Below, piece after piece: positions 5,936 to 17,045 of a DNA stretch of 64,000 nt (position 1 is the first letter of the stretch; every line of letters starts with the position of its first letter). The stretch is from contig NZ_LN881724.1 of the NCBI RefSeq assembly GCF_001457415.1, positions 1,612,001 through 1,676,000 on the forward strand, in the 5' to 3' direction. The notes under the pieces are model-generated. The model was not told where the DNA came from. It ran no database searches and was given only the letters and a program-made list of their open reading frames with translations. Source of the stretch: Gorillibacterium timonense. GTDB taxonomy: Bacteria; Bacillota; Bacilli; Paenibacillales; NBRC-103111. Made by a program: the position numbers and the translations under genes.

Positions 5936-7096
5936 TCAGGTACGGAATAATCCCGAAGCAGAAGTTTCTTGCGGGCCAGTCGGCCATTGGCCGGAATGGA
6001 GATGCTCTGCGATGTCCTGAGCGATGGCCTCTGCCGAACGGGGGTGACGCAGCCTAGAGATGCTATCGCACATGTGCCGCCGCAGTTCCCCATCACGCAA
6101 TAACCGGAGGATGAATAAGGACAGGTCTTCGCCGCTATAGGCGATCATGGCGGCTCCTTTGGAAGCGAGATAGTCGGCATTTGCCATCTCTTGCCCGGGA
6201 ACGGGACGATAAAAGATGCAGGGGAGATTCGCCGTAAGCGCTTCCGAAATCGTCACTCCTCCCGGCTTGGTGACCAAGCCGAAGGAGATGGCCATCAGCA
6301 TCGGAATATCCTCCACATACCCGAAGACGTGAACGTTGTGTGCCCAATGGTAGGCTTGCTTAAGCTTCTCCGTGAGAGACCGGTTGTTGCCGCAGATGAA
6401 CACGATTTGGAGGTCGTGAAGGGATAGAAGAACCGGGTCGAGCCGCTCAAGGCCTTTAAGGACGCCATAAGAGCCAGCCATGATCAGCAAGGTCTTCTTG
6501 CGGGAGCTGAGACCGAAGCGGTTGTAGATGCGATCGCAGCCGACAGGTCTGCGGAAATTCGCCATCGTCGGAATCCCGCACACCTTCAGCTTCTCGGGAG
6601 CAATGCCTCTGTCTCTCAGCTCCTTTGCGAGTTCATGAGTCGCTACGTAATAGGCCGAATTCCTTTTGTGAAGCCATCGGGAGTGAGCGGTGAAATCCGT
6701 TAGCACCGTGCTGATCGGAACGGGATATCGACCATTGTGCGTATTGGGAAGGCTCGGCATAGGGAAGGTATTGAGGAGGAGATCGGGTTTTTCTTGATCG
6801 ATCAGGGTGAGAAGAACCTTTCGCCCGAAACTGTTAACCCATTGAAGGACGAGGTTTCCCGCATGCAAGCGGTTAGTCGATCCGTACAGCCATCCGTACA
6901 AATGAGGAAAAACCGAGTAGCTCTTCCTGTAAAAGCGCCGGCAAAAAGCATCGAGGAAAGGATGGGACAGGGCCATCAAATCGATCATAACGGCTTCGAT
7001 CTCGCGCTCGCTTAAAGCCTCCTTCAGTGCGCGGGAGACTTGCAGATGACCGTCTCCATAGCTTGCATAGAGGATGAGCACCTTAGGATTGGCCAT
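5936..7096 (-). CDS. MGDG-synthase-type (UgtP-like) glycosyltransferase
   Basis: A 386-residue member of the monogalactosyl/diglucosyl diacylglycerol synthase family, whose members transfer hexose from UDP-sugars to diacylglycerol or related acceptors at the inner membrane face. The N-terminal family motif is ILYASYGDGHLQVSRAL. The C-terminal GT28-like donor site reads KPGGVTISEAL and then FYRPVPGQE, with the NADYL segment after it. ATG at 7096 is chosen because AGGTGA sits 5-6 bases upstream; the upstream GTG at 7129 has no ribosome binding site. It stands alone, convergent with birA. It could be the main glucolipid synthase or one of several paralogues, so no symbol is given. Confidence 0.85.
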   Translation of the reverse strand: MANPKVLILYASYGDGHLQVSRALKEALSEREIEAVMIDLMALSHPFLDAFCRRFYRKSYSVFPHLYGWLYGSTNRLHAGNLVLQWVNSFGRKVLLTLIDQEKPDLLLNTFPMPSLPNTHNGRYPVPISTVLTDFTAHSRWLHKRNSAYYVATHELAKELRDRGIAPEKLKVCGIPTMANFRRPVGCDRIYNRFGLSSRKKTLLIMAGSYGVLKGLERLDPVLLSLHDLQIVFICGNNRSLTEKLKQAYHWAHNVHVFGYVEDIPMLMAISFGLVTKPGGVTISEALTANLPCIFYRPVPGQEMANADYLASKGAAMIAYSGEDLSLFILRLLRDGELRRHMCDSISRLRHPRSAEAIAQDIAEHLHSGQWPTGPQETSASGLFRT

Positions 7097-7248
7097 GAGC
7101 TTCACCTGCCTCCGGTTGGGTATTTGCACGGGCTGACCGGAATTAGTTTTCGAATTTCAGAAGATTCTTATCCGAGGTTAAGCTTATCTTAAGGTTTGTC
7201 CTGTATTCTTTAGATACTCTCTTTTTCACGATATACGTTTCATCCTTA

Positions 7249-7275
7249 CCCCGAACTCCGTTCGGGGCTTTTTTT
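7249..7275 (+). terminator. orphan plus-strand intrinsic terminator
   Basis: Perfect seven-base stem CCCCGAA/TTCGGGG with loop CTCCG, followed by CTTTTTTT. The U-tract makes it plus-strand directed, but no plus-strand gene lies upstream: the neighbouring gene 5936-7096 runs the other way. It may end a short unannotated RNA starting in 7100-7250, or be a relic. Confidence 0.7.
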
Positions 7276-7291
7276 ATAGCAGCCGTTTACC

Positions 7292-7405
7292 ATGAGGGGG
7301 TCTCGTGGTCGGGAGGAGAAGAGGAGGGCAAATGTGGCAGCGTCTTCTATGCTTTATGCGGTTCCACTTTTCGTTATGCCGCTCCTTTTCTACTGGATCA
7401 GATAA
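7292..7405 (+). CDS. possible 37-residue single-membrane-span peptide (doubtful)
   Basis: The frame starts at ATG 7292 with an Arg/Lys-rich head (MRGSRGREEKRR), followed by a hydrophobic stretch (MLYAVPLFVMPLLFYW) and a terminal Arg. A shorter version could start at GTG 7334, which has GAGGAGG 6 bases upstream, a good ribosome binding site. The charge and hydrophobicity pattern is that of a small inner-membrane peptide, but the length is within the range expected by chance. I recognise no family. Confidence 0.25.
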   Translation: MRGSRGREEKRRANVAASSMLYAVPLFVMPLLFYWIR

Positions 7406-7509
7406 CAACTTGAGCTTAATCGCTGTTAACCAAATGATAGGGCTCTCTCCGATGATCTTTGGACCGATATTGGAAATTAGAATGGATCGCCGACAACCTT
7501 AACGTCCTT

Positions 7510-8406
7510 TCAATATTGATTGTTGACTTCGCTTCGGATCATACCGACGAAGGCCTCCGCCACTGGGGAGAGCGGCTCCTGTTTGCGCGTACATACGGCG
7601 ATCGGATTCATCAGGGTCATGCCGCTGACGAACACCCGTGACACCTCACCCCGCTCCACATAATCCTTTACGGCCAGAGACGAAATAAAGTTCGCCCCGT
7701 AGCCCGCAATCACGGCGCGCACCGCCTCGCTGACCCCGTTGAACTGAAGGCCTACCTTCGGTGGGTTCACATTCAAGGCGCGGCACAGAGAGAACAGCCG
7801 CTCCCGGGTGGAGCTGCCCTCCTCGCGGAGAATGAAGGGCACTTTCATCATTTCGGACAAGGTAATTTCTTTGCCTGCATAGGGGTGGCGGTTGGGCACA
7901 ATGAACCACAGCTCATCCTCCAGCAGCTGCTCCCACTCAATGCCCGGCTGCTCTTCCCAACCTCCGCCGTAAACCGCCACCTCCGCATCATAGTTAAGAA
8001 GCTGCTCCACAGCCTCACGGGAATTGACGGTGGTCAGCACCACTTCCACCTCGGGATGCTCCTGCTTGTAACGGGCCAGCCACTCGGGAAGCAGCAGGTT
8101 GGCGGGAAGATAGGTGGCCACAATGCGCAGCACGCCGCTGAAGCCCGCCTTGTACTCCCGGATGCCCGACTCGATCTCCCGCTCCAACGCAAACAACCGC
8201 TTGGCATATCCCGCCACGATAACTCCGCCGTCGGTCAAGAGAACGCCCCGTCCCTTGGGCGCCAGCAGTTGAAACCCCAGCTCCTTCTCCAGGTTGCGGA
8301 CTTGAGCCGTAACAGCCGGCTGGCTGATCAGAAGCTCCTCGGCAGCGCGGGTCACCCCGCCTTTTTCAGCAACCGCATAAAACAACCTCAGCGCATGCAG
8401 ATTCAT
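7510..8406 (-). CDS. LysR-family transcriptional regulator
   Basis: 298-residue LysR-type regulator. The N-terminal winged helix (LHALRLFYAVAEKGGVTRAA, then SQPAVTAQVRNLEKELG) occupies residues 1-60. The periplasmic-binding-like effector domain begins near residue 88 (GVLRIVATYLPANLLLPEWL). ATG 8406 is preferred over ATG 8427/8430 because LysR proteins normally begin immediately before the first helix, although the ribosome binding site is weak. The gene is divergent from pyk across a 141-bp A/T-rich spacer. LysR regulators commonly control the divergent neighbour, so pyk is the likely target; the effector is unknown. Confidence 0.9.
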   Translation of the reverse strand: MNLHALRLFYAVAEKGGVTRAAEELLISQPAVTAQVRNLEKELGFQLLAPKGRGVLLTDGGVIVAGYAKRLFALEREIESGIREYKAGFSGVLRIVATYLPANLLLPEWLARYKQEHPEVEVVLTTVNSREAVEQLLNYDAEVAVYGGGWEEQPGIEWEQLLEDELWFIVPNRHPYAGKEITLSEMMKVPFILREEGSSTRERLFSLCRALNVNPPKVGLQFNGVSEAVRAVIAGYGANFISSLAVKDYVERGEVSRVFVSGMTLMNPIAVCTRKQEPLSPVAEAFVGMIRSEVNNQY

Positions 8407-8547
8407 TATCCAGCCCAACTTCCTCATCAAAATTTATGAAAAACGAAAAAATATATATTTTTCTTATGATACACTTTCCGATATTCTAGGATCAAGAGAA
8501 AAAATTCACAAGCAAAAAATAGGGAAAACGGACAAGGAGTGGAGAAC

Positions 8548-9978
8548 ATGCGCAAAACTAAAATCGTATGCACCATCGGCCCTTCCAGCGAAAGCCCGGA
8601 AATGCTCCGCAAGCTGATCCGAGCAGGGATGAACGTAGCCCGGCTCAATTTTGCCCACGGGGAGCCGGAGGAGCATGCAGCCCGCATCCGCAATATCCGC
8701 GAAGCCGCCGCCGCCGAGAATCAGTATGTAGCCGTGCTCATCGACACCAAGGGCCCTGAAATCCGCATCGGCAAAATGGAAGAGTCCTTCGTGGAGCTTG
8801 TAGAGGGTGAAACCGTCACCCTAACCACGGAGGAGGTGCTTGGCACCAAGGACCGCATTCACGTCACCTACAAGCAGCTTCCCCAGGACGTATTGCCCGG
8901 CAGCATCATTCTGATCGACGACGGTCTCGTTCGCCTGGAGGTGGAGCATGCCGAAGGGACCGAGATTGTTTGCCGAATCCGCAACGGCGGCCGCCTGAAG
9001 CCCCGCAAGGGCGTCAACGTTCCCGGCGTGAAAACCAGCCTGCCCGGCGTAACCGAGAAGGACATCCGCCACATTCGCTTCGGCGTAGAGCAGAAGATCG
9101 ATATCATCGCCCAATCCTTTGTCCGCAAGGCGGAGGACATTCTGGAGATCAAGCATATTCTCAATGAGCTGGGCGCAGGACATATACAGGTGGTAGCCAA
9201 AATCGAAAATGACGAAGGCGTAGAAAATCTGGACGCCATCATCTCCGTATCCTCCGGCATTATGGTGGCCCGCGGCGACTTGGGCGTAGACTTGCCGGTG
9301 GAGGATGTGCCGCTGGTGCAGAAGGACATGATCCGCCGTTGCAACCTGGCAGGCAAACCGGTCATCACCGCCACCCACATGCTGGAGTCCATGCAGCAGA
9401 ATCCCCGTCCTACACGCGCCGAGGCCGGAGATGTAGCCAACGCCGTATTTGACGGTACCGATGCGGTCATGCTGTCCGGCGAATCTGCCGCAGGCAAGTA
9501 TCCGCTGGAGTCGGTGGAAACGATGGCCCGCATCGCCGTGAAGGCCGAATCCGCTCTGGACAGTTACAGCTGGCTGACTCTGCAGGCCGCCCGCAAAACG
9601 ACGGACGTGACCGGAGCCATCGGCCAGGCCGTGGCCCAAGCGGCGCTGGAGCTGGACGCCAAGGCCATTCTGGCCCTGACCGAAAGCGGCTTTACCGCCC
9701 GAATGATTGCCAAGCATAAGCCGCAGGCTCCGATTATCGCCGTTTCCTCCAAGCCGTCCGTGCTTCATGCTCTGACGATGAGCTGGGGCGTCATTCCGCT
9801 GTTGCGCAGCTCAGACGTCGCCGACAGCGATGCAGCGGTGCTGTCCGCCGTGGAGCTGGCCAAAGCCGGCGGCTACGTCCAGGACGGCGATCTGGTTGTC
9901 ATCACTGCAGGCGTGCCTGCTGGAGCCTCTGGCACCACGAACCTGCTCCGCATCCATCGGGTAGGAGATTCGCTGTAA
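8548..9978 (+). CDS. pyk: pyruvate kinase, short form
   Basis: Catalyses phosphoenolpyruvate plus ADP to pyruvate plus ATP. The 476-residue protein has the classical N-terminal KIVCTIGPSS, the ARLNFAHG and DTKGPEIRIG motifs, the active-site signature MVARGDLGVDLP and the C-terminal GVPAGASGTTN. ATG 8548 has AAGGAG 8 bases upstream; GTG 8539 overlaps that site. The housekeeping Bacillus/Paenibacillus enzyme is about 585 residues, with an extra C-terminal PEP-utiliser-like domain. That domain is absent here, so this is probably a second, specialised isozyme. It lies apart from pfkA and is divergent from a LysR gene. A terminator follows. Confidence 0.93.
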   Translation: MRKTKIVCTIGPSSESPEMLRKLIRAGMNVARLNFAHGEPEEHAARIRNIREAAAAENQYVAVLIDTKGPEIRIGKMEESFVELVEGETVTLTTEEVLGTKDRIHVTYKQLPQDVLPGSIILIDDGLVRLEVEHAEGTEIVCRIRNGGRLKPRKGVNVPGVKTSLPGVTEKDIRHIRFGVEQKIDIIAQSFVRKAEDILEIKHILNELGAGHIQVVAKIENDEGVENLDAIISVSSGIMVARGDLGVDLPVEDVPLVQKDMIRRCNLAGKPVITATHMLESMQQNPRPTRAEAGDVANAVFDGTDAVMLSGESAAGKYPLESVETMARIAVKAESALDSYSWLTLQAARKTTDVTGAIGQAVAQAALELDAKAILALTESGFTARMIAKHKPQAPIIAVSSKPSVLHALTMSWGVIPLLRSSDVADSDAAVLSAVELAKAGGYVQDGDLVVITAGVPAGASGTTNLLRIHRVGDSL

Positions 9979-10189: not shown

Positions 10190-11230
10190 CTAGCTGGAAG
10201 ATTCAGAGTTCATCCCGAGCTCCGCGCGGCATAATTCGATGTAGCGGCGTGCCTGAAAGCTGCCTGTTCCGCATTCGATCAAATGACGGGTGTCCGCTTC
10301 CCCCATTTGAAGGCACCGTTCAAAGACGTCCAGAGCTCCATCAAATCTTCCCATGCGGTATAAGATTACGCCTTTGTAAAAATGGAGATCAACATAGTCG
10401 GGATGCAGGGCGATCGCTTTATCGATCCCGGACCCTGCTTGCCCGATATTTCCCTCTGCAAGAAGTGCGGCATACTTCAGCTTGTATAGAAGGGAAGGCG
10501 GAATCCGTTTGCTGTGAATAAAGCGCAGGATGGACAAGTTTACGGCTTCTATGGCATCGCGATAACGGCCTGCCCGATAATATTCGTTCGCGAGATGGAA
10601 TTCCAGCCAAGGATGATCCTCTCCAGACGATAGCGCGGCAAGGAGCATATCCAGGTTGCGGTGGTGCTTCTTGCGCATGAGTTCGGGCTCGTTCAAATAA
10701 CCGTAATGATGAATCGTGACCGGAACGGAACGAATGTCCGAATTCCAGCCGCCTTTTACCAGGATTTCATCCGCATTTACCATCTCATGGATGCTGTAGG
10801 TAAACTTCAAACCGGCTCGATTTCGGAACAAGCGAGTCTGAGCCATTCGATAGCTGCTGTTCTCCTCTGGCGCTCTTCCCGTATAGTGAACAGTGGTTGC
10901 CGCCAGCAGCAGATCCTTGTCATCCCGCAGCCAATGGGCGGTCTTCATTTCCTCCGTGCATTCCAACACCTCATCGGCATCCAGCCATAAAATCCAATCG
11001 CCTCTTGCCTTCTGAAGTCCATAATTCCGCGCATTTGAAAAATTCCCATCCCAGATATACTCATAGCACAAGTCCGTAAATTCGGATACCACCTCTAAGG
11101 TGCCGTCAGAGGACCCCGTATCGACAATGACCATCTCATGGACATGAGGACGCGCGCTCTCAAGGCAGGCTCTGAGGGAAGCCGCTTCATTCTTGACGAT
11201 CATGCAAAGGGATATCGTCGGTGCCGCCAT
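10190..11230 (-). CDS. family 2 glycosyltransferase with TPR-like C-terminus
   Basis: 346 residues. The N-terminal GT-A domain begins [15 protein letters not shown], carries VDTGSSDGT for nucleotide binding and the DXD-type metal motif WLDADE near residue 100. The C-terminal half is helical with repeat-like units (YYRAGRYRDAIEAV, then LHFYKGVILYRMGRFDGALDVF), typical of TPR-tailed glycosyltransferases. ATG 11230 follows GGAGGTGA. Its catalytic domain closely resembles the second domain of the glycosyltransferase at 14094, and both flank the collagen-like gene. The likely role is therefore sugar transfer onto the spore-surface glycoprotein; this is inferred from position. Confidence 0.87.
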   Translation of the reverse strand: MAAPTISLCMIVKNEAASLRACLESARPHVHEMVIVDTGSSDGTLEVVSEFTDLCYEYIWDGNFSNARNYGLQKARGDWILWLDADEVLECTEEMKTAHWLRDDKDLLLAATTVHYTGRAPEENSSYRMAQTRLFRNRAGLKFTYSIHEMVNADEILVKGGWNSDIRSVPVTIHHYGYLNEPELMRKKHHRNLDMLLAALSSGEDHPWLEFHLANEYYRAGRYRDAIEAVNLSILRFIHSKRIPPSLLYKLKYAALLAEGNIGQAGSGIDKAIALHPDYVDLHFYKGVILYRMGRFDGALDVFERCLQMGEADTRHLIECGTGSFQARRYIELCRAELGMNSESSS

Positions 11231-11289
11231 CTGAATCACCTCCGTGGGAAGCAGGACAAGAGCCTGCTTGCGAACCGGCAACGGTCTGA

Positions 11290-11316
11290 ACCATTTGGGC
11301 TCTTCTACATACTATG
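11290..11316 (+). promoter_or_regulatory. candidate sigma-K promoter for the gene at 11366
   Basis: AC at 11290-11291, a 16-base spacer, then CATACTATG at 11308-11316, against the sigma-K consensus AC-N16/17-CATANNNTA (last position differs). A late mother-cell promoter would fit an exosporium protein. The -10 element is nearly palindromic, but the opposite strand lacks a matching -35. Confidence 0.45.
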
Positions 11317-11365
11317 ATGTAGCGAACGGACTCCTCCTTTCGAATAAAGAAGGTGGTGGTTAATC

Positions 11366-11674
11366 ATGTCAATGCCCAACATACCGGATATCAAACCGGA
11401 GATCATTCTCTGTCGGCGGGATGTTATCCATTTGCTCTTAACGTCAATCGCTCTGGAGGAAATTGGATTTTCCCACATCATCAACGCCGAGGCGGAAAAA
11501 ATCCAGCACATGCTGAAAGAAGAGTGCCTGACCTTGGATGATGCTTTGCGTGTGAATGATAGCGTGAATCAGATGCTCCGGGGAATCGTAGCGAACCAGA
11601 TCCTGCTTCAATTTAAGCTGACTGATGTGCTGGCTATGGATAAGAAGCATCATGAATGCTGTGATGAAGAGTAG
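11366..11674 (+). CDS. free-standing spore-surface helical module protein
   Basis: A 102-residue protein that is essentially only the N-terminal helical module of collagen-like exosporium proteins. It shares with residues 17-95 of the collagen-like protein at 12471-13925 the pattern RDxxxLLLxSIAxEExGxSHIxNAExEK and then NxSVxxML....NQIxLQxK. It ends in a short acidic His/Cys tail (KKHHECCDEE) instead of collagen repeats. ATG 11366 follows AAGGTGGTGG. A sigma-K-like promoter lies 50 bases upstream. In related proteins this module is thought to mediate attachment or oligomerisation at the spore surface; here it may be a partner or cap for the collagen-like protein. Confidence 0.75.
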   Translation: MSMPNIPDIKPEIILCRRDVIHLLLTSIALEEIGFSHIINAEAEKIQHMLKEECLTLDDALRVNDSVNQMLRGIVANQILLQFKLTDVLAMDKKHHECCDEE

Positions 11675-11702
11675 CCGGTCATTGGGCAGATCGGGGGAGG
11701 AC

Positions 11703-12455
11703 ATGCGGATCGGATCGTTCGCAAATAGGGTGCCCGCTGTGCCATTCGAAAGCGCAGTTGTCCATTGGAAAGAAAGCATAGAATACAGCGAAGAAGCATT
11801 AAGTAAGCTTCTCTATGCGAAAGCGGAGCAAATCGACGCCTTCCGGGAAGGAAAGCTAAGTGGAGGAAATTTGCCTGAAACGAAGGATGTCGTTCACTTT
11901 CATCGATCCATCCTCCGCTTTGCCGATTCGTTGATGATGATGAATTGGATTCTGCTTCATAAGAAAGATGAAGTCTCGGAGCTCGATAGACAGAGCCTGT
12001 CCGAGGAGAGTCTCCCCATAAAGAGAGGAGTTTCTTCCGGAAGGCACTTGCTCGATTCAGGCAAAGCCGTTTCGCAGCTGATTCACTCGCTAGCCAACCT
12101 GTTGATTCAGGAAATGAGCTTGAGAACGCCTCATGAGGATAAACTGTCCATTGTTCTGGAAGGACAATTTCTTGAGCTCCTTCACGTGATCGTCAGCCTG
12201 ATCGCTTCTGTGGTAATCCAGGGGAACCAGCAGATCGAATGGAAGGAGCCGCTTAGCATTGCTCTGCTGCGATACCCGTTCCGCTATCCGAGTTCATGCC
12301 GAGAGGCGAGAAGAATCCTGCGCGGTCTTGAAGCTTTAAAGCGTTTCGCCGCGCAAGAGGATCTGAACGAAAGGAAGGAACGGCTTCCGCCGCCTTGGTT
12401 GAATCAAAAAGCAGCAATCCAGGCGATTACGGATAGAAGCCGTTCCATGATCTAG
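11703..12455 (+). CDS. uncharacterised helical protein of the spore-surface cluster
   Basis: A 250-residue protein with no family I can name. Its first half resembles the helical module of its neighbours: EALSKLLYAKAEQIDAF can be laid on EEIGFSHIINAEAEKIQHM, and a segment ending NWILLHKKDEV on one ending NQILLQFKLTDV. The second half is a further set of amphipathic helices and ends basic. The start is uncertain: ATG 11703 has GGGAGG only two bases away, while ATG 11652 or 11664 would overlap the previous gene. It is co-directional with 11366-11674 (28-base gap), so probably co-transcribed. It converges on the collagen-like gene. Confidence 0.65.
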   Translation: MRIGSFANRVPAVPFESAVVHWKESIEYSEEALSKLLYAKAEQIDAFREGKLSGGNLPETKDVVHFHRSILRFADSLMMMNWILLHKKDEVSELDRQSLSEESLPIKRGVSSGRHLLDSGKAVSQLIHSLANLLIQEMSLRTPHEDKLSIVLEGQFLELLHVIVSLIASVVIQGNQQIEWKEPLSIALLRYPFRYPSSCREARRILRGLEALKRFAAQEDLNERKERLPPPWLNQKAAIQAITDRSRSMI

Positions 12456-12470
12456 TAGCCCTTCAGGATG

Positions 12471-13925
12471 TTAGGTTAACCGGATGATGACCAAGCTTGC
12501 TCCCGGAGCCTGCAAGCCCACGGATACCGCTGAGGATACTTGCAATTGAAGCGTTTGACCGGCTGTGATCGGGATGATGGCCTGAGCCTGAAGTGATGTG
12601 GTGGTCACGGAGGCCGTTTCTGTTGACGGAATACTGACGTTGCTTAGCAAGATTCGGGAAGACGTTAAGAGCGATGCGGTCATACTGATCGAATAACGAA
12701 TGAAGTAGTTACCGGTATTGCCGATGGTAAGCGTGTCGTTTGCTCCGTTGATGGTGATGCCAGTGGGAATGTTCTGGTTGTTCGGTAAGGTGACAAGTCC
12801 CGAACCGAGAAGCACGGCAATCGTTCCGGATGTGTTCTGTGCGAAAGCATAGTTTCCGGTAACGCTTGTTCCCGTTGCTCCTGTCACTCCGGTCGGCCCT
12901 GTAGGGCCGGTACCTCCTGTAGCCCCGGTGGCTCCTGTCGGACCCGTCGGACCGGTTGCTCCCGTGCTGCCCGTCGCTCCGCGCGCCGCCAAAAGCGTAT
13001 AAGCAGCCGAAGAATCGGGCGTACCGGTAGGTGGAGCGGTATTCACCATGTAAGTAGCTCCATTGTAGGTGACGACTTGACCGACAGGATAGCCGGGAGC
13101 AAGCGCAACGTTGAACGATACCGCGCCTCCAAGGCCGATGCCGGTAGCCCCCGTCGGACCGGTTACCCCAATGCTGCCGGTAACACCGGTAGCCCCCGTC
13201 GGACCTGTTGGGCCAGCGGCGCCCGCAGCACCCGCTGCCGCCAATAGCGTATAGTTTGGCGAAAAACCAGGTGTCCCCACGGGAGGAGCGGAAGTTACGA
13301 TATAAGTGCCGCCGTTATAAAAGACAACCTGATCCTGTGGGTAACCCGGAGCAAGCAACGGGTCAAAGACCACGAGACCGCCCAGGCCTGCACCTGCCGC
13401 CCCCGTCGGACCGGTCACTCCAGTTGGTCCTACTGCGCCAATCGGTCCGGCGGGGCCGATTGCGCCTGCCGGGCCTATCGCGCCGGTTGGTCCTGTGGCT
13501 CCAACGAATCCTGATAACCCGGTCGGTCCCGTCGGCCCTGTAGGACCGACCACTCCGGCGGGACCCGTCGGCCCTACGGGTCCTCCTGAAGGACCTGTAG
13601 GTCCCGTTGGTCCTGTAGGTCCGACCAAGGTTGGACTCTGCAAAGCGGTCTCCATTTTGGATTGCAGAAAAATTTGATTGCGCGCCGTACTGTCCAACAT
13701 GGAGCGAACGCTTTGATTGACTTCCAGCAGTTCCCCGATCGTTGGATTTGGCCCTGATATCCCGGGTATTGTGCCCAGCACGTATTGCAGCTTCTCTCCT
13801 TCTGCGTTCAGAATATGGCTCATACCCAATTCTTCCATAGCGATGGAGGAAAGGAGCAGATTCACGGCATCGTCGCGGGTTAAACTCACGGTGGGCGTGA
13901 TGTTTGGAAGATTCGGCTGTGACAA
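12471..13925 (-). CDS. collagen-like spore-surface (exosporium-type) protein
   Basis: 484 residues. Residues 1-99 form the helical anchoring-type module ([28 protein letters not shown]). Collagen Gly-X-Y tracts rich in GPT occupy about 102-180, 231-264 and 315-352. Between them lie two copies of a 50-residue beta-type module (181-231 and 265-315; shared LAPGYP, GTY.V, APP.GTP, YTLLAA). Residues 353-484 form a C-terminal beta domain like that of BclA-type proteins. The start is TTG 13925, with GGAGGTGG five bases upstream. Such proteins trimerise and are glycosylated on Thr in the GPT repeats; the flanking glycosyltransferases fit. No signal peptide is present, as expected for mother-cell-assembled spore proteins. 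Confidence 0.88.
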
Positions 13926-13965
13926 GAATTCCACCTCCCAAATAGAATACATACAAAGATCAGTC

Positions 13966-13995
13966 CAATATATGATTGCCGTGCTTCGCTTGTAC
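13966..13995 (-). promoter_or_regulatory. candidate sigma-K promoter of the collagen-like gene
   Basis: On the minus strand AC (13993-13992), a 17-base spacer, then CATATATTG (13974-13966), matching AC-N17-CATANNNTA except the last base. It lies about 40 bases before the TTG start, a normal leader length. This supports late-sporulation expression. Confidence 0.5.
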
Positions 13996-14093
13996 TGGGA
14001 TATAGCCCTTGTACGGATAATGATTAGGAGGATGAAAGGACTGAAGCCCCTCCTTCGGGCGTGGCAATCAAATGTGAGGAGATGGTAAGGCAG

Positions 14094-15986
14094 ATGCCCA
14101 TTCGCGTCCTGATTGCAAGTCCAGTGCAGCAAAAGCCGCAAGTTCTCGAATTGTTTCTGAAATCATTGTCCTTGTTGAAAACCGCCCCCTGTCAGGTCGG
14201 ATATCTTTTTCTAGATAACAATGACCTCGAGGCATCTAGAGAGCTGCTAAAGGGATTTCAAGCGAAAACGCAAGACGTTACGATCCAGGAACGACCGGCT
14301 CAATCCTATGAGCGAGATGAGCATTCCCATTATTGGGATACAGCCCTCATCGACAAAGTGGCAGGCATGAAGGATGCCATTATCGAACATGCCCTTGAGC
14401 ATCATTATGACGCCTTGTTCCTTGTTGATTCTGATCTCTTGCTATATCCGGATACGCTTCTTCGTCTGCTGGCTGTGGAGAAAGAGATCATCTCTTCGAT
14501 TTTTTGGACCAAATGGCAGGCTGAAGGAGACCCGCTTCCTCAAGTTTGGCTAATGGATGAATATTTGTTCTTTAAGAACTCCGGCCTGAAGAATGATCGG
14601 TCCGAAGAGGAGCAGGCTGCTGCCTTCCTGCAGCAAATGCGGACGCCTGGTATTTATGAAGTGGGGGGGCTTGGCGCATGTACCCTGATCAGGCAGTCCG
14701 CGCTGAGCAAGGGAGTACGGTTCCATAGATTGCCCAACCTTTCGTTCATGGGCGAAGATCGGCATTTTTGCATCCGCGCTGCAGCGCTTGGCATTTCGTT
14801 GTTTGTGGATACGCGCTACCCGGCCTATCACATTTACCGGGAATCCGATCTCTTGGGCGGGAACGATTTTTTGCGTTCCATCGAGGGTTTTCTTCCGTCT
14901 GGCATCACGATCAGCTTATGCATGATCGTAAAGAATGAAGAGGAAGCGCTGGGCAAATGCCTGGAATCGGTTCAGGGCATCGCGGATGAGATCAACATCA
15001 TCGACACCGGCTCGACCGATCGGACCAAAGAGCTGGCGGAGACGTTTAAGTGCCGGATCTTTGATTATAAATGGCATGATGATTTCTCGGCAGCGAGAAA
15101 TTTTGCGTTCGATCAAGCGACGAAAGACTATATTCTGTGGTTGGACGCGGATGATGTCCTCTTGGAGGAGGATCGCCTTGCTTTCCTGGCTTTGAAGGGG
15201 AAGCTGGATTCGGGTGTGGACAGTGTGATGATGCATTATGTGCTGGCAACCGACAACAACGGCAAGCCTACGATCAGCTTGAAGCGGAACCGGCTGGTGA
15301 GGCGAGCTTGCCAGTTTCGATGGATTGGCCCTGTTCATGAATACTTGGAGGTGTTCGGCCGGATTGAGCAGAGTGAAATCCAAGTCACTCACGGGAAGAA
15401 CAAAGCTTATACCGACCGGAATCTGCAGATCTATCGCAAACGCAAAGAGAAGGGAGATGTATTTTCACCGAGAGATTTGTATTATTTCGCTAATGAGCTA
15501 AGGGATCATGCGTTTTATGAAGAAGCAGTGGAGCAGTATGAGTTGTTTTTAGCCGGTAAGAACGGATGGATCGAGGATCAGATCGGCGCATGTCTGAAGC
15601 TGGCCGACTCCTACGAGCATGTAAGCAAACGCGATCTGCAGCTCCGATCCTTGTTCCGTACGATGGAGCTCGATCTGCCTCGGGCGGAGAGCTGCTGTGC
15701 GCTTGGCAAGCTGTTCCTGTCCGAGCAAAGATTTCATCAAGCCGTCTATTGGTATGAAAAAGCGACACAACTCAGCAAGCCTTCATCGAACGGTGCTTTG
15801 GTCGATCATGCCTCTTGGTCGTGGCTTCCTTATCTGCAATTGTGTGTATGCTATGACAAGCTGGGAGAGTATCGGAAAGCGAATGAGTGCAATGAAACCG
15901 CACTCGCTTTATGTCCGGGGCATCCGAGCATGCTGATGAATCGGGACTATTTTCGGGAGAGGCTGGGGAAGGAAGAGCGAGGGTGA
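14094..15986 (+). CDS. bifunctional glycosyltransferase with TPR-like tail
   Basis: 630 residues in three parts. Residues 1-260 form a GT-A-like domain opening [14 protein letters not shown], with an acidic metal-type motif [17 protein letters not shown] and a later [10 protein letters not shown]. Residues 275-480 form a second family 2 domain ([29 protein letters not shown]). The remainder is helical and repeat-like ([22 protein letters not shown]). ATG 14094 is preferred because AAGG and GAGGAG lie upstream; GTG 14061 lacks a site. It is divergent from the collagen-like gene. Two catalytic units in one chain suggest a two-sugar or iterative glycan extension on that protein; this is inference. 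Confidence 0.85.
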
Positions 15987-16181: not shown

Positions 16182-17045
16182 ATGAAATCAAATGTAGGCC
16201 GCAAGCCTGCCGCAGGATCAGCAGGGGAGAAGGAGCGCATTCGTCTTGCTAGGCGAGGACTTCTCGTTTTCTTCTCCATGCTCCTGCCTCTCTCCGTGCT
16301 TGGTTATGTGCTGACGATGAAATACCCGATCTTTGTCTTGTTCCTGATGTGGGCGCCAGGACTTTCTTCCATCTTCACGCGATTGCTGCTGCATGAAGGG
16401 ATCAAGGATATCTCCTTGCGGTTCGGAGGACGACGTACATGGAAGACACTGCCTTTCGTCCTGCTGTTTCCTGCAGTCATCGGCCTGGTTGCTTATGGGG
16501 TTGCTTGGAGTACGGGACTGGTACAATACGTCACTCCGGACACGTACATAAAGGCTTCGCCTTTCGTTACCTTCGTGAGCCTCTTGCTCATCCAGATGGT
16601 TGTCGGCACATTCGTTGGCCTCATCGGCAGTGTCGGAGAGGAGCTTGGCTGGCGGGGGTTCATGCTCACTCGGCTGATCGACGCCCGCGTTCCTTACCCG
16701 ATGCTGACCAGCGGGGTCATCTGGGGCATATGGCATCTTCCCTTGATGCTTGGGGGTCAGTATTATTCCGGTCCCTATCCCGTTCTCTCCGTTCTCCTCT
16801 TTATGATTTCGGTCACCTCCTTCGGCTACATGATTGGGCGGTTGCGGTTGACAACCGGCAGCATATGGCCTGCTTTCTTCCTGCATGCATCCTGGAATGC
16901 CATCATCCAGGAGGTGTTCGATTCCTCCTCCAAAGGGAAGAATGCGCTGCTCTGGACGGGTGAATCGGGGGTTTTTGTGGCACTCGCTTTGCTGGCAGCG
17001 GCATGGGTCATCTCGCGGATGCCGATGAGAGTGAGGAAGTTGTAA
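16182..17045 (+). CDS. CPBP-family intramembrane metalloprotease
   Basis: A 287-residue polytopic membrane protein of the CPBP (CAAX/bacteriocin-processing) family. The hallmark motifs are GEELGWRGF near residue 155, the catalytic pair EExxxR, then WGIWHLPLML and the late HASWN with the remaining metal ligands. About seven or eight hydrophobic segments are visible, and the N-terminus is basic and cytoplasmic. AAGGGG precedes the ATG at 16182. Members cleave or modify membrane substrates; some give immunity to bacteriocins. No substrate is suggested by the neighbours, and it appears to be transcribed alone. Confidence 0.88.
   Translation: MKSNVGRKPAAGSAGEKERIRLARRGLLVFFSMLLPLSVLGYVLTMKYPIFVLFLMWAPGLSSIFTRLLLHEGIKDISLRFGGRRTWKTLPFVLLFPAVIGLVAYGVAWSTGLVQYVTPDTYIKASPFVTFVSLLLIQMVVGTFVGLIGSVGEELGWRGFMLTRLIDARVPYPMLTSGVIWGIWHLPLMLGGQYYSGPYPVLSVLLFMISVTSFGYMIGRLRLTTGSIWPAFFLHASWNAIIQEVFDSSSKGKNALLWTGESGVFVALALLAAAWVISRMPMRVRKL

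Follow-up and report, generated by a model that had tools for sequence, protein, structure and literature searches.

Two endospore appendages of the Bacillus cereus group are known to bear collagen tip proteins on their fibres, namely L-ENA, in which Ena3A is accompanied by L-BclA, and F-ENA, which involves F-BclA and F-Anchor (PMC11952670, PMC12921279). F-BclA keeps a docking peptide only, and a transferase gene is located two genes away (PMC11952670). In parallel, the C. difficile enzyme SgtA, composed of a GT2 domain and TPRs, was found to put O-GlcNAc on threonines of the collagen repeats of BclA3 (PMC7157674). Another set of collagens, the Clp proteins of FZB42, is encoded in one tandem cluster and contains other domains, including galactose-binding-like N-termini in ClpB and ClpC (PMC4319854). 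Finally, a fibre structure entitled 'Ex vivo spore-silk A-ENA fibers' was released in the PDB on 2026-03-04 (9ihh); its deposited assembly consists of 29 chains of a 101-aa subunit. A literature search on A-ENA, spore silk and 9IHH retrieved no paper. Of the elements treated below, the A-ENA fibre family is known from the PDB, the pairing of a collagen with a transferase from C. difficile, and the collagen tip from fibres of other kinds.

The locus described here comprises five genes in a stretch of 64,000 nucleotides from Gorillibacterium timonense (contig NZ_LN881724.1, positions 1,612,001 to 1,676,000), referred to as the window. We consider the likely product of the locus to be an endospore appendage of the A-ENA type whose collagen tip is glycosylated, a picture in which polymerisation, tip position, the role of the third protein hel3, the sugar and the order of the two glycosyltransferases are what we infer.

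Organization of the locus

The five genes lie between two others which, from their translations, we take to encode pyruvate kinase (8539-9978) and a CPBP-type protease (16182-17045). The features are as follows.

GTa, 10190..11230, minus strand: 346 aa; GT2 domain (GT-A, motif LWLDAD) and C-terminal TPRs; predicted SgtA/GmaR-like protein O-glycosyltransferase.
Sigma-K-like promoter of modS, approximately 11290..11317, plus strand: ACC-N15-CATACTAT; ends 50 nt before the start codon.
modS, 11366..11674, plus strand: 102 aa; free-standing, most likely A-ENA-type pilin; presumed main fibre subunit.
hel3, 11703..12455, plus strand: 250 aa; divergent pilin as N-half, then another helical domain with PPWLNQ at its end; presumed to anchor the fibre or to be a minor subunit of it.
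Collagen protein, 12471..13925, minus strand: 484 aa; pilin module (1-97), Gly-X-Thr-rich stalk with two inserts, BclA C1q-like head.
Sigma-K-like promoter of the collagen gene, approximately 13967..13993, minus strand: ACA-N16-CATATATT; ends 41 nt before the TTG.
GTb, 14094..15986, plus strand: about 630 aa; Anp1-like GT-A domain (motif DSD), second GT2 domain (LWLDAD) and TPRs.

These genes are real and located where a preliminary description had placed them, but their starts had to be corrected. The collagen gene begins at the TTG at 13925, downstream of the strong ribosome-binding site GGGAGGTGG, and not at 14141. The start of GTb was moved from the GTG at 14061 to the ATG at 14094 because homologue alignments begin at residue 12-16, and the corrected starts of hel3 and GTa are the ATG codons at 11703 and 11230, respectively. 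The gene list given at that time stands as far as it went; it omitted the BclA head, the CBM5/12-like inserts, both TPR regions and the identity of the module.

A probable pilin module in free and fused form

As previously described, the N-terminal module of the collagen protein also occurs as a free-standing copy, modS, the free and fused forms being 46% identical over 95 aa (E=3e-28). No family was found for modS in Pfam, NCBIfam or PHROGs, and the module was recognised only through a PDB sequence search. A profile of nine module sequences matched 9ihh_A with E=3e-26, the next match being at 0.24. The same chain was found with modS alone (phmmer, 2.8e-16) and with the N-terminus of the collagen protein (1.1e-15). 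The AlphaFold2 model of modS, obtained with 24 homologues (pLDDT 86), predicts a two-helix hairpin preceded by a flexible N-terminal arm, and in a Foldseek search with this model 9ihh_A was the sole PDB fold match with E below 0.001 (E 5.9e-4, TM 0.74/0.80). Since profile and predicted fold both match 9ihh, modS is most likely an A-ENA-type spore pilin, and the fused module most likely belongs with it to this family of endospore appendage pilins. The module would accordingly be a pilin domain rather than an unknown oligomerisation module.

The N-terminal arm reads MSxPNxPxI, with M1, S2, P4 and P7 invariant in free and fused copies alike. This invariance, together with the fact that the one relative of known structure is the subunit of a fibre, deposited as an assembly of 29 chains, argues against the view that the module merely targets proteins to the spore surface in the manner of the BclA exosporium leader, with modS and hel3 as scaffold and without any pilus. 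That view finds some footing in hel3, which has lost the conserved arm, and in two Bacillus loci (L011, L012) with a single free module that carries an acidic/proline-rich tail; we nevertheless hold it to be very improbable.

The third protein, hel3

Pfam, NCBIfam and PHROGs gave no meaningful match for hel3, which was also unremarkable against the starting module profile. After two rounds of profile building, residues 15-89 matched at 27.7 bits, and hel3 counterparts from relatives are already recognised by the original profile (1e-6 to 1e-20). The module-like helices previously ascribed to this protein are thus borne out for its N-half. Paenibacillus agri and the B. velezensis group encode the C-half in a gene of its own, so that hel3 of the window is a fusion. 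In a tree of 114 modules, whose short alignment leaves many forks unresolved, hel3 sits on a long branch and falls in a HEL class of divergent modules (split support 98/89). The same tree contains at least two free classes and one class with all the collagen-fused modules. The AlphaFold2 model of hel3 is of low confidence (pLDDT 68), and its fold search returned no PDB match, which is meaningless at that quality.

The collagen protein

At the C-terminus, the collagen protein has a BclA C1q-like head (PF18573 6e-28, 97.7 bits against a cut-off of 38; PDB BclA 1wck 1.2e-11). The collagen stalk (PF01391, about 1e-15) is composed of 50 Gly-X-Y triplets in four runs, with threonine as third residue in 31 of the 50, and contains two CBM5/12-like inserts of about 53 aa (PF02839 5.5e-5, just under the curated cut-off). 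These beads occupy residues about 180-233 and 265-315 (window 12980-13390), and residues 280-354 also match the phage tail-fibre family phrog_5073 (1e-37). In relatives, collagen proteins have two or three such beads each. NCBIfam matches up to E=1 included no exosporium leader family; the N-terminus is formed by the pilin domain, and the protein is therefore not simply a BclA-type nap protein. It is a pilin-collagen-BclA-head chimera and probably forms a tip fibrillum.

A second module-collagen gene was observed in the same genome (L087 8389-9825; G000 C7, about 691-692 kb). It encodes 478 aa with mostly GAT/GAA triplets; neither a BclA head in the protein nor an adjoining free module or glycosyltransferase gene was detected. 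In the same way, the module-collagen gene stands alone in some other genomes.

The position of the collagen protein can be read in another way. It might be built in along the whole fibre, or form a layer of its own, so that glycosylated hairs would decorate the filament or the spore and modS would act as a spacer or co-subunit. The window protein keeps a whole pilin domain, more than the docking peptide of F-BclA (PMC11952670), several relatives have at least two module-collagens per cluster and the L087 copy lacks a free module beside it, all of which fits such an arrangement. On the contrary, the known ENA collagens are tip proteins, and the grouping of collagen-fused modules in a tree class of their own suggests that the position they take is specialised, not interchangeable. 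Placement along the fibre is thus unlikely in our view, although it retains some weight, and the tip remains the preferred site.

The glycosyltransferases

GTa consists of a GT-A GT2 domain with a DxD motif (PF00535, 9e-20) followed by TPRs, and its best PDB relatives are GmaR (2.6e-33) and SunS (2.6e-16). The two catalytic domains that had been attributed to GTb were both recovered, an Anp1-like one (PF03452, 4.6e-4) and a GT2 one (PF00535, 2.3e-24), and TPRs are present here too. A D-x-D motif, conserved among homologues, is present in each catalytic domain. Two further paralogues of the GTb N-domain were found in the same genome (L108 7688-11509 and L109 9280-10137), one of them beside another transferase of about 628 aa.

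A shared substrate had been proposed from the paralogous GT2 domains of the two enzymes, which is a weak argument. Better evidence comes from two relatives (L069, L071) in which GTa and GTb are one protein of 1019 aa; these gene fusions suggest that the two enzymes act together.

Distribution and linkage of the cassette

Of 105 genomes belonging to the same family, 27 carry modules, which mostly form clusters. A typical cluster combines a free module or a pair of them with a hel3-like protein, at least one module-collagen and the transferases GTa, GTb and a stand-alone GTb2-like one. Both Paenibacillaceae and the Bacillus velezensis/atrophaeus group have kept the cassette; in B. velezensis, B. 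atrophaeus, B. siamensis and B. nakamurai it consists of the module-collagen, GTa, the hel3 C-half and a free module, without GTb. A public record of this group labels the set 'collagen-like protein, glycosyltransferase, hypothetical, hypothetical', and in B. velezensis it adjoins genes for an MFS protein and for organic hydroperoxide resistance. The Clp collagens of FZB42 were weighed as a candidate for this locus and set aside on their published description, a single tandem cluster with other domains (PMC4319854), which differs from this gene neighbourhood.

Several variants were observed. Frame disruptions interrupt the collagen gene, the GTa gene or both in B. nakamurai, Bacillus sp. ISL-51 and B. 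siamensis (L022, L024, L015), and suggest cassette decay or assembly errors. A protein of 372-382 aa with a partial N-terminal module (L072 7123-8241, L081 9872-11020) adjoins a GTb2-like transferase and a module-collagen, and is a possible further minor subunit. Three module-containing genes occur in tandem in gut Oscillospiraceae-type MAGs (L014, L016, L018, around 7000-9900), so that the fibre family extends to anaerobic gut bacteria.

The collagen-pilin set and the transferases could also be chance neighbours with separate functions, the enzymes modifying another surface polymer. Six of the 15 full-length GTb homologues are indeed in genomes without modules, three of these six having no nearby collagen gene either. 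Moreover, the closest Paenibacillus relatives (L009, L010) have the collagen gene, modS and hel3, and no GTa or GTb was found in the flanks examined, so the transferases are not obligatory neighbours. Against chance stands the linkage of GTa. Among its 23 best homologues, a group clearly apart from the rest and taken as orthologues, 21 have a module no more than 8 kb away, a linkage seen in many genera and once more in Bacillus, while none of the next 23, more distant paralogues does. Full-length GTb is near a module in 9/15 cases, and the three other module-less copies adjoin a collagen gene (L097, L098, L100). The preliminary description had named transferase homologues lying mostly away from collagen-like genes as the finding that would speak against it; with 21/23 GTa next to a module and 12/15 full-length GTb next to a module or a collagen gene, such a scatter is not what the homologues show. 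Separate functions are accordingly improbable, and a common role in the collagen-tipped appendage is preferred.

Link to sporulation

A sigma-K-like promoter (AC-N15-18-CATANNNT) was found upstream of 25 of the 92 module genes and of 12 of the 343 other genes in the same stretches; the Fisher value of 1.7e-10 is too optimistic because module sequences are related, but the contrast is still large. Shuffled controls gave a mean of 4.0 and a maximum of 9. Not every module gene should have a promoter, since many are inside operons. In the window, both modS and the collagen gene are preceded by such a site. Together with the homology to a spore fibre, these motifs support, at the sequence level, a spore-associated locus. 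The genome also has SpoIVA, like 31 of 33 module carriers, a co-occurrence that is uninformative because 340 of 399 sampled genomes carry SpoIVA.

Proposed model

In the collagen-tipped appendage that we favour, expression would be driven by sigma-K in the mother cell late in sporulation, and modS pilins would stack into a thin alpha-helical fibre. The N-terminal arm would dock into the neighbouring subunit and is the likely connector. The collagen protein could join this fibre because it carries the same pilin domain as modS; it would do so most likely at the tip, by analogy to the tip fibrillum of L-BclA and F-BclA (PMC12921279, PMC11952670), showing its trimeric stalk and BclA-type C1q head. 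The armless hel3 would be a minor pilin that may cap or anchor the fibre. GTa would start the glycan on the Gly-X-Thr threonines of the stalk, the analogy with SgtA and GmaR making GlcNAc the probable first sugar, and GTb would then extend this glycan. How a trimeric collagen stalk is joined to a fibre of module subunits is left unexplained by this model, which counts against it.

The core of the initial reading, a probably glycosylated spore filament built by one self-contained locus with its own transferases, thus holds, given the transferase linkage, the spore-fibre homology and the sigma-K-like promoters. The reading changes in that the module is read as a pilin and that the exosporium leader is missing.

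Significance

We tentatively raise the possibility, which is open to considerable doubt, that these loci represent a widespread and distinct class of endospore pilus, present also in the Bacillus velezensis/atrophaeus group. Such a pilus would be a heteromeric alpha-helical fibre made of two free pilin classes and a divergent adaptor, with a pilin-collagen-C1q cap whose stalk is O-glycosylated by SgtA/GmaR-like enzymes. Within the literature searched, the pilin-collagen-C1q fusion at an A-ENA-type locus, the co-inherited pilin classes, the GTa-GTb fusion and the B. velezensis-group set are new, part of which a paper on 9ihh may cover.

The analysis gives an identity to small 'hypothetical proteins' found in public genomes beside a 'collagen-like protein' and a 'glycosyltransferase', and it connects the recently solved spore fibre with a collagen tip and with the enzymes predicted to decorate that tip with sugars. 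To our knowledge, the B. subtilis crust carries no collagen-like glycoprotein. Its plant-associated relative B. velezensis is genetically workable and has the cassette, which makes the spore-surface content of this group directly testable.

Comparison with known systems

The closest system is the A-ENA fibre. modS and the N-terminus of the collagen protein are clear homologues of the 9ihh subunit in sequence and predicted fold (about 40% identity). Compared with that entry, the window adds the pilin-collagen-C1q chimera, the divergent two-part pilin hel3 and two transferases, although partners of 9ihh may be published.

The nearest solved relatives of both GTa and GTb are Listeria GmaR, whose substrate is flagellin, and SPbeta SunS, which acts on a small peptide; GTa and GTb differ in having their own TPR layouts and in sitting at a collagen locus. 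By its published description, SgtA of the C. difficile sgtA-bclA3 pair resembles GTa in size, in its GT2+TPR layout and in the position of the gene beside a GPT-repeat spore collagen (PMC7157674). No pilin module is described there, whereas the window also has a second, two-domain transferase. With B. anthracis BclA, the collagen protein has in common the collagen stalk and the C1q-like head (PF18573, 1wck), but it has a pilin domain in place of the exosporium leader and two CBM5/12-like beads that break the stalk.

F-ENA and S/L-ENA were considered as the identity of the locus and rejected. At E 0.001, the F-ENA domain DUF4183 (PF13799) had no match in the genome, nor did the S/L-ENA domain DUF3992 (PF13157), for which no control genome matched either. 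Like L-ENA and F-ENA, the window pairs a pilin with a collagen-like protein bearing a BclA-type C1q head. Their pilins (DUF3992, DUF4183) are unrelated to modS, and the window collagen has a whole pilin domain where theirs have a docking peptide or an exosporium leader. This suggests a design rule common to unrelated ENA fibres, in which the pilin may be of any kind and the end product is a collagen stalk displaying a C1q head.
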